This document shows positions 38,140 to 49,017 of a DNA stretch of 64,000 nt, in pieces; the stretch's first letter is position 1, and the number at the start of each line of letters is the position of its first letter. Below the pieces are notes generated by a model. That model was not told the DNA's origin. It made no database searches and saw nothing but the letters and a program-made list of their open reading frames with translations. This DNA is from Celeribacter litoreus (GTDB lineage Bacteria > Pseudomonadota > Alphaproteobacteria > Rhodobacterales > Rhodobacteraceae): contig NZ_JAIUFY010000005.1 of NCBI RefSeq assembly GCF_020165855.1, positions 793,243 through 857,242 on the forward strand, written 5' to 3'. Both the position numbers and the translations under genes were made by a program.

Positions 38140-38214
38140 TGGAGCGGGTGATGAGATTCGAACTCACGACATTTACCTTGGCAAGGTAACGCTCTACCCC
38201 TGAGCTACACCCGC
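38140..38214 (-). tRNA. tRNA-Gly (GCC), copy 1
   Basis: 75 nt with encoded CCA. Acceptor GCGGGTG with matching 3' side, anticodon stem-loop TTACC-TTGCCAA-GGTAA giving GCC, T loop TTCGAAT. Identical to the copy at 38263. Confidence 0.97.
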
Positions 38215-38262
38215 TCGCGTCCAGCCTGTAACATCGGCTCGGTTATGTCCCCGAAGGGAAGT

Positions 38263-38337
38263 TGGAGCGGGTGATGAGATTCGAACTCACGACATTTACC
38301 TTGGCAAGGTAACGCTCTACCCCTGAGCTACACCCGC
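38263..38337 (-). tRNA. tRNA-Gly (GCC), copy 2
   Basis: Same 75-nt sequence as the copy at 38140-38214, in the same direction, 48 nt upstream of it. The pair is likely made from one precursor ending at the terminator at 38109. Confidence 0.97.
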
Positions 38338-48047: not shown

Positions 48048-48200
48048 GTTCTCGATACATGCGCGGCTTGCATGAGTGCGTCCTGCGGTGACGTGGGGCG
48101 AACTATCCTCATTTGAAAATCCGGAAGACAAACGCACAAACACTCGCACCCATCGGGAGGCGAGTTGCGAGACAGTTGTCAATGTCAGGGAGGGTCTAAA

Positions 48201-48276
48201 GCGCGGCGGTGCCAGGGAGGAGGAGAGGCACCGCCGCCTTCAGTAACGGCCCTCTAGGGAGGAGGAGAGAGGGACC
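48201..48276 (-). ncRNA. CcsR-type (cuckoo) sRNA, third unit
   Basis: Two stem-loops on the minus strand, both exposing a CCUCCUCCC loop: a short stem at 48250-48273 (CCCTCT/AGAGGG) and a perfect 11-bp stem at 48203-48237. Same short-long pair as in the two units nearer to the DUF1127 gene. An extra hairpin without the motif (48286-48301) separates it from the second unit. Confidence 0.7.
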
Positions 48277-48306
48277 GATCCGAACCGGGGTTTGATCCCC
48301 GTATAG

Positions 48307-48378
48307 GTGCGGTGATGCAGGGAGGAGGACGCATCACCGCTCAGGTACCCAAGGCCCAAGGGAGGAGGAGGGGCCTCG
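48307..48378 (-). ncRNA. CcsR-type (cuckoo) sRNA, second unit
   Basis: Short stem AGGCCC/GGGCCT (48352-48376) and a 10-bp stem GCGGTGATGC/GCATCACCGC (48309-48340), each with a CCUCCUCCC-type loop on the minus strand. Such RNAs in Rhodobacter sphaeroides are processed from the DUF1127 transcript and act in stress responses. Confidence 0.7.
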
Positions 48379-48392
48379 AATTCCGGAATTTG

Positions 48393-48464
48393 ATGCGGTA
48401 GCGCCAGGGAGGAGGAGGGGCGCTACCGCTGTATCAAGGCCCAAGGGAGGAGGAGAGGGCCTGA
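48393..48464 (-). ncRNA. CcsR-type (cuckoo) sRNA, first unit
   Basis: First unit behind the DUF1127 stop. Short stem AGGCCC/GGGCCT (48437-48462) and an 11-bp stem GCGGTAGCGCC/GGCGCTACCGC (48395-48429), each closing a loop with CUCCUCCUCCCU on the minus strand. The loops resemble anti-Shine-Dalgarno sequences. Confidence 0.7.
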
Positions 48465-48474
48465 TGAGAAACTC

Positions 48475-48690: not shown

Positions 48691-49017
48691 CGGACTTGAA
48701 CCTTAGTATGCGTTAGGGCCGCGTCATTGCCTCACTTGGTTAACCGCTTCGGACTGCGTTGGTTCCGTAGGGCGTCGTCATCTCGACTGTGTGGCAAAGC
48801 TTGGCCGCTCTGTTGAGTTGAATATCGGTGTTTTGCTGCAGATGCACAATCCACCGGTTGGTCATTGCCGCTATGCAGAAAATGCATAACCCTAACTGAC
48901 CTATTTGTCTGGGATGTTTCCGCTAGCGGGAGGCTGCTTTGCATGTGCGTGAAAATGTCGGGTAGAATTAGGTCAGCAAAGGGCCTATTTCCGTCAGAGC
49001 AGATAAGAGAGGGTCCT
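48691..49017. other. DUF1127-apbC divergent intergenic region
   Basis: 327 nt holding the promoters of two divergent genes. No ORF with support and no strong dyad was seen. The sequence GGAACC upstream of the DUF1127 gene resembles an ECF -35 box, but no matching -10 was found. Confidence 0.4.

Follow-up and report, generated by a model that had tools for sequence, protein, structure and literature searches.

A predicted LsrB/VtlR-type promoter module at a ccaF1-CcsR (cuckoo RNA) locus of Celeribacter litoreus

Organization and family identity of the locus

The minus strand of the 64,000-nt stretch of Celeribacter litoreus DNA analyzed here (the window) carries a short DUF1127 gene followed by three tandem pairs of hairpins, which are listed with the associated features in Table 1. 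A previous sequence-only reading of the same DNA had described six hairpins in this region, and all six are found where it placed them, with TCCTCCTCCC in the loops on the minus strand. Its proposals that 12 nt separate the DUF1127 stop codon from the first hairpin and that short and long stems alternate (6, 11, 6, 11, 6, and 11 bp, with the motif in every loop) are likewise correct. The sequence GGGAGGAGG occurs in six copies in the window, all of them in the array, whereas 0.45 copies were expected and at most two were seen in 100 dinucleotide shuffles. The 361-nt array region folds at z = -8.8 relative to shuffles. Taken singly, the three long hairpins each have z below -6, the three short hairpins gain little or nothing over shuffles (z = -2.0, -1.0, and +0.1), and the motif-free spacer hairpin has z = -1.6. 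Three things had escaped the sequence-only reading: a probable degenerate terminal pair, the promoter module, and two other genomic places where the motif occurs. Simple pattern scans for sigma-70 promoters and terminators returned no match at the locus, and a 13-codon upstream ORF seen by eye in the leader had no counterpart that could be spotted by eye in C. baekdonensis.

Table 1. Features of the locus, in window coordinates
Feature	Position	Strand	Evidence or details
LsrB/VtlR-type LysR box TGCATTTTCTGCAT (TGCA-N6-GCAT), predicted	48873-48886	minus	conservation; resembles the PnfeR1 site
VtlR-like stretch TGCATAGCGGCAATG	48863-48877	minus	12/15 identical to reverse-complemented Brucella VtlR motif
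Promoter core, predicted	TTGTGC 48849-48844; -10 region CGATAT/GATATT 48827-48821	minus	predicted start near 48814
Promoter module (whole)	48821-48886	minus	conserved boxes and spacing
DUF1127 (CcaF1-like) gene, 71 aa	48475-48690	minus	PF06568, E = 1.5e-11
CcsR unit 1	48390-48472	minus	hairpins 48437-48462 (6 bp) and 48395-48429 (11 bp)
CcsR unit 2	48304-48383	minus	hairpins 48352-48376 (6 bp) and 48309-48340 (11 bp)
Spacer hairpin between units 2 and 3, motif-free, CGGGG-AUCAAA-CCCCG	48286-48301	minus	-8.0 kcal/mol
CcsR unit 3	48198-48280	minus	hairpins 48250-48273 (6 bp) and 48203-48237 (11 bp)
Decayed fourth (terminal) pair, probable	48142-48195	minus	weak alignment with Celeribacter relatives

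At Rfam gathering thresholds, no match is found at the locus. The gathering score of RF02791 (CcsR1) is 65.3 bits, and matches were recovered with an E-value threshold instead. Units 1, 2, and 3 score 54.7 bits (E = 1.4e-12), 34.7 bits (E = 1.1e-6), and 52.6 bits (E = 5.7e-12), respectively, all under gathering. This covariance-model search had been suggested by the sequence-only reading, and its three matches with strong E-values, one per pair and adjoined by a DUF1127 gene, uphold the proposed assignment to CcaF1, CcsR, and the cuckoo RNAs. The ar14 model (RF02344) also matches at the locus (56.0 bits, E = 1.9e-9), under its gathering score of 58.8. Genome-wide, the CcsR1 matches with E < 0.1 comprise the three array units and one orphan pair, and nothing else.

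Cuckoo RNAs are defined as having two to four hairpins, a conserved loop motif, and helices without sequence conservation (PMC4504443); each unit here has two hairpins with an identical loop motif, and its helices behave as described in the arm- and flank-swap controls below. The term CIN1 locus denotes a short DUF1127 gene that occurs together with CcsR-like RNAs (PMC10253847), and here a DUF1127 gene lies beside CcsR1 matches. We consider it very probable that the locus is an operon of the ccaF1-CcsR type (CIN1, cuckoo RNA), contains three CcsR units, and works by the mechanism proposed below. The RNAs are of a known kind, and the layout of the array is ordinary.

In R. sphaeroides, ccaF1, encoding a DUF1127 protein of 71 aa, is co-transcribed with CcsR1-4, which are released from the ccaF1 3' UTR by RNase E with CcaF1 playing a role, and CcaF1 is reported to promote CcsR maturation (PMC10253847). 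Overproduction of CcaF1 is reported elsewhere in print to interfere with CcsR maturation, and flhR is a reported CcsR target. The C. litoreus locus resembles this system in its 71-aa DUF1127 gene followed by tandem RNAs that fit the CcsR1 model (RF02791). It differs in having three units and a probable decayed fourth, whereas R. sphaeroides has four, in unit scores that fall under CcsR1 gathering, and in a sequence-predicted LsrB-type promoter module where RpoHI/RpoHII control is reported for R. sphaeroides. The S. meliloti RNA NfeR1 (ar14, RF02344) is similar in that its hairpins have anti-Shine-Dalgarno loops and that TGCA-N6-GCAT lies approximately 72 nt before the start (a predicted start in our case), but it is free-standing with three hairpins, unlike the two-hairpin units behind a DUF1127 gene that are found here. 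The loop motif CCUCCUCCC was given the name anti-Shine-Dalgarno in the S. meliloti relatives of the CcsR RNAs (PMC3927594, section 2.7).

Stem pairing, spacers, and the end of the array

The sequence-only reading had also claimed that pairing is kept although the stems differ in sequence, and two swap controls agree with it. Within the window, the arms of all six hairpins (6/6) pair fully with their own partners, compared with 2/30 swapped combinations. We then took 550 exact motif copies, without any stem filter, from the arrays of the window and of the best 80 of at least 547 relatives, and swapped their flanks between loci. The mean stem was 10.0 bp with a motif copy's own flanks and 5.0 bp with swapped flanks; stems of at least 9 bp were formed by 70% versus 9%, and stems of at least 5 bp by 96% versus 49%, so that a 5-bp stem alone proves little. 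These differences support selection on pairing with the stem sequence left free. Stem figures obtained from hairpins preselected for 5 bp were biased and were replaced by this control. A claim of loop invariance over 566 hairpins was dropped, since the search expression itself fixes most of the motif.

The motif-free hairpin between units 2 and 3 had rightly been singled out as worth study. It is real, and similar hairpins separate pairs in C. baekdonensis and, at two places, in a same-genus genome (G260). Among 116 spacers drawn from the long inter-hairpin gaps of 52 loci, 93 contain a perfect stem of at least 5 bp (shuffles: mean 33, maximum 42), and their mean energy is -9.2, compared with -4.7 in shuffles. 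As spacer stems exceed shuffles in this way, a frequent repeat unit is a short hairpin, a long hairpin, and a motif-free spacer hairpin.

Beyond unit 3, CCCTCCC is found near 48194-48188 without an evident stem, followed by a hairpin (48165-48142, z = -2.1) whose loop holds CTCCC and whose tail is T-rich. This hairpin is probably a degenerate terminator, and the stretch as a whole is probably a decayed fourth, terminal pair. In both C. baekdonensis (L071) and G260 (L161), the last array hairpin bears the motif and is followed by TTTTC; the alignment of the relic with their terminal pairs is weak, with 60% mean column identity. At least five T residues occur in the 8 nt after the last array hairpin in 30 of 79 loci, compared with 9 of 487 other hairpins (best 80 of at least 547 relatives). 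In part of the relatives, the last hairpin thus seems to double as a terminator.

Distribution and copy number among relatives

The comparison set consists of the best 80 of at least 547 relatives, taken from named genomes by their DUF1127 protein. It contains near-duplicates (L071/L072 and L102/L104), and R. sphaeroides is absent from its 80 named loci. The closest protein among the named matches listed is that of C. baekdonensis (74% identity over 70 residues). Downstream of the gene, 79/80 of these best-matching loci carry at least one motif hairpin when stems of at least 5 bp are counted, and the figure is likewise 79/80 when at least 9 bp is demanded. Hairpin counts per locus rest on stems of at least 5 bp, a length reached by 49% of swapped flanks as well, and they may be low in three loci that stop within 1200 nt of the DUF1127 stop codon. 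Counted in this way, six hairpins are the commonest number in the 80 loci (14/80, range 0-14), and six exact motif copies are also the commonest (15/80). The three-pair layout is therefore typical, and the special status that had been proposed for it is not supported.

The association is also apparent when loci are retrieved without the protein. A pair pattern built on the motif is present in 241/394 genomes of the family Rhodobacteraceae, compared with one genome for the reversed pattern (control read by eye), and 29 of 30 motif-retrieved loci from these 241 genomes have a DUF1127 gene, the exception being L026. The pattern occurs in 7/385 genomes of a class sample, three of them inside the family, and in 7/299 genomes of a phylum sample, six of them inside the family; as an exact pattern it may overlook rhizobial forms. 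Three class-sample matches outside the family (L048-L050) were rejected: none has a frame above 6 bits for DUF1127, and the stems at the motif are 1-2 bp in two of them and a mismatched 8 bp in L049. The out-of-family matches in G696 (class) and G963 (phylum) were set aside as low-complexity repeats by their appearance to the eye.

One genome (G165, L163) has 26 motif copies in a row, 24 of them with stems of at least 5 bp, in a 140-bp unit repeated 6.5 times with 97% matches, which looks like a recent tandem expansion. A second very long cuckoo array (G272, L162) has similar units of 140-142 bp with 89% matches and is apparently also a tandem expansion.

The promoter module

The leader upstream of the DUF1127 gene reads ATGCATTTTCTGCATAGCGGCAATG...GGATTGTGCATCTGCAGCA. 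We compared 81 leaders, namely those of the window and of the best 80 of at least 547 relatives. TGCA-N6-GCAT is found within 330 nt upstream in 73/81 loci (mononucleotide shuffles: mean 0.26, maximum 2). Measured from the start of a looser TGC-N8-CAT box, TTGTG follows at 37 nt in 53 loci and at 36 nt in 20, 73/81 in total. The overlapping sequence TGCATRGCNGCATTG agrees at 12/15 positions or more with the reverse complement of the Brucella VtlR motif (published in PMC12595884) in 73/81 loci, compared with 11/15 at most in shuffled leaders (one per locus). The NfeR1 promoter of S. meliloti has TGCA-N6-GCAT at -72 to -60, where LsrB binds, and depends on LsrB for its activity (PMC10746234). 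The C. litoreus box lies at -72 to -59 of a start that we infer from the conserved hexamers, so that by sequence the promoter has the features of an LsrB-activated one.

Searched alone as DNA, the module is present in 248/394 family genomes, and in C. litoreus exactly once, at this locus; the reversed module is found in 15 of the 394 genomes (counted by eye). Among 30 loci that the module alone retrieved from the 248 genomes, a DUF1127 gene lies within 900 nt in 26, and the cuckoo motif is present in 21 of these 26 and absent from five. In the C. litoreus genome, TGCA-N6-GCAT is found upstream of four of the six DUF1127 genes. In the loci scanned, the exact box was not found at the DUF1127 genes at C8:713 kb and on C13, nor at the orphan CcsR pair.

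It could be argued that RpoH-type sigma factors are the sole drivers of the operon and that the TGCA-rich module is the site of some other regulator, since R. sphaeroides ccaF1-CcsR1-4 has been placed under RpoHI/RpoHII and not under LsrB (PMC10253847). We regard this as unlikely, given that the spacing between module and TTGTGC is fixed in 73 of the 81 leaders and that the module resembles published LsrB/VtlR sites in both sequence and place. RpoH-type and LsrB-type control may also act together on the operon.

A candidate LsrB-like regulator

As anchors for LsrB, we used the LysR genes adjoining AbcR (RF02345) in five genomes that belong to a single family of the class, Rhizobiaceae by our reading. 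The best match in C. litoreus (C9:38572-39441) scores 255 bits, compared with 131.6 bits for the next LysR protein, and is 39-40% identical to the Rhizobiaceae anchors. Searched back in four of the five AbcR-bearing genomes, it ranks the AbcR-adjacent LysR first in 4/4, and is thus the reciprocal best hit expected of an LsrB/VtlR orthologue. In a survey of 20 hand-chosen genomes, the LsrB-like gene is present in 13/13 other family genomes tried, at 60-84% identity. A SorY/SorX/suhB-like sRNA is predicted downstream of the C. litoreus gene on the same strand (L230 3816-3893, minus) and in 13/13 other family genomes, with E = 3e-6 or better in each; most of these SorX/SorY matches are under their gathering scores, and their Rfam family is other than AbcR. 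The LsrB-like gene with its predicted downstream sRNA mirrors lsrB-AbcR. The downstream sRNA was not found in two out-of-family genomes (L223, L224). Besides the low identity to the anchors, two observations count against the assignment. One is that trxB, a neighbour of the Rhizobiaceae genes that was found in L223-L228, was not found beside the LsrB-like gene in the family loci L210-L222 or L230. The other is that no cysteine of the C. litoreus protein lines up with any cysteine of the three anchors, so that the conserved effector-domain cysteines expected for redox sensing by LsrB are missing and the signal of the LsrB-like protein may differ. Another LysR gene, divergent from a different DUF1127 gene (L010/L016), was dropped as a candidate regulator because it scores 44 bits to the LsrB anchor.

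The arrangement recalls the VtlR regulons of Brucella (DUF1127 genes and AbcR2) and Agrobacterium (sRNAs), in which a similar box is found at DUF1127 genes and the LysR gene has an sRNA beside it, as here. It differs in that the DUF1127 gene and the sRNAs are joined in one locus, and in that the sRNA beside the LysR gene is SorX/SorY-like here, compared with AbcR in VtlR systems. The conserved regulator site in the ccaF1-CcsR promoter suggests that the rhizobial control circuit also works in Rhodobacteraceae. We think it reasonably probable that an ancient alphaproteobacterial circuit extends beyond Rhizobiales, in which an sRNA-adjacent LysR regulator of the LsrB/VtlR type switches on DUF1127 proteins and cuckoo RNAs; in Rhodobacteraceae, it would control the fused ccaF1-CcsR operon together with other DUF1127 genes, and the dose would be tuned by tandem duplication of the CcsR unit.

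LsrB control of a cuckoo-type RNA is already known for NfeR1 in S. meliloti (PMC10746234), and its extension to the CcsR RNAs of Rhodobacteraceae appears to be new. In the literature searched, with subscription papers outside its scope, we found no paper that brings CcsR together with LsrB or VtlR; PMC12501420 treats CcaF1 and has LsrB solely in its reference list. The locus itself is one more ccaF1-CcsR operon, and its promoter module is of greater importance. What is new and open to testing is a conserved promoter, LsrB-type by its sequence, of the ccaF1-CcsR operon across Rhodobacteraceae. If it is real, the module would explain the co-regulation of cuckoo RNAs and DUF1127 proteins outside Rhizobiales and would link the R. 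sphaeroides work on CcaF1 with the rhizobial work on LsrB and VtlR, and it would conflict with the statement in PMC11975290 that LsrB is unique to Rhizobiales.

Proposed mechanism and predicted targets

By analogy with studies of R. sphaeroides and S. meliloti, on which the steps of transcription, processing, LsrB binding, and target repression are modelled, we propose that an LsrB/VtlR-type LysR regulator would bind TGCA-N6-GCAT and activate a sigma70-type promoter with its start near 48814. The transcript would encode the small CcaF1-like protein and continue through the array, and RNase E, influenced by CcaF1, would cut it into three CcsR RNAs of approximately 80 nt, each with one short and one long hairpin that present CCUCCUCCC in their loops. 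Being copies of the anti-Shine-Dalgarno sequence, these loops would pair with purine-rich Shine-Dalgarno sites of the GGGAGGAG class and lower the translation of uptake and catabolic mRNAs under stress.

Genes with an 8-nt Shine-Dalgarno sequence complementary to the loop are present in C. litoreus: GGGAGGAG lies 2-10 nt before an ATG at 33 sites in the genome, compared with three for the reversed pattern. For these 33 sites, 30 loci were fetched and 29 recovered, giving 19 distinct genes with frames of at least 50 codons, 17 of which have a Pfam match. The predicted targets include two ABC solute-binding proteins (genes at C8:972895 and C9:373812), the ATPase of a branched-chain amino-acid transporter, acetyl-CoA synthetase, two aldehyde dehydrogenases, PHB polymerase, and a catechol dioxygenase. 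As a gene list, they resemble published NfeR1 and CcsR targets of the transport and carbon classes.

A different role for the hairpins, mainly in the stability or decay of the ccaF1 mRNA or as docking sites for CcaF1 and without any action in trans, would accord with their position closely behind a protein gene and with the T-runs that follow the last hairpin in 30/79 loci (9/487 for other hairpins; best 80 of at least 547 relatives). We consider it improbable in view of the CcsR pair on C14 with no DUF1127 gene found nearby, the free stem sequence combined with an anti-Shine-Dalgarno loop, and the published action of CcsR and NfeR1 on targets. The idea that the array is made of chance C-rich repeats, to which the singly unremarkable short hairpins might lend themselves, is refuted by the motif count, the covariance matches, and the conservation, and carries virtually no weight.

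Other DUF1127 and CcsR loci in the genome

From C10:191285 onward (L011/L013), a second DUF1127 gene is followed, as judged by eye, by a single hairpin with CCUCCUCCC and by another that resembles a terminator and has GATCCTCCCC as its loop. The Rfam ar14 model scores 48.1 bits at this locus, and the gene has an exact TGCA-N6-GCAT upstream with TTGTG at 36 nt. The orphan CcsR pair (C14:31315-31397, L014 3016-3098, minus, E = 5e-8), with no DUF1127 gene found nearby, lies approximately 160 nt downstream of a SorY-like sRNA (L014 3261-3337). At approximately 189.5-190.4 kb on C8 (L008 1296-2260), there are two consecutive DUF1127 genes, the second recognized by a purpose-built model (E = 8.7e-9). 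Each has an exact TGCA-N6-GCAT upstream, with TTGTG not in place. Elsewhere in the window, two tandem tRNA genes with identical Rfam scores are found on the minus strand at 38143-38337.
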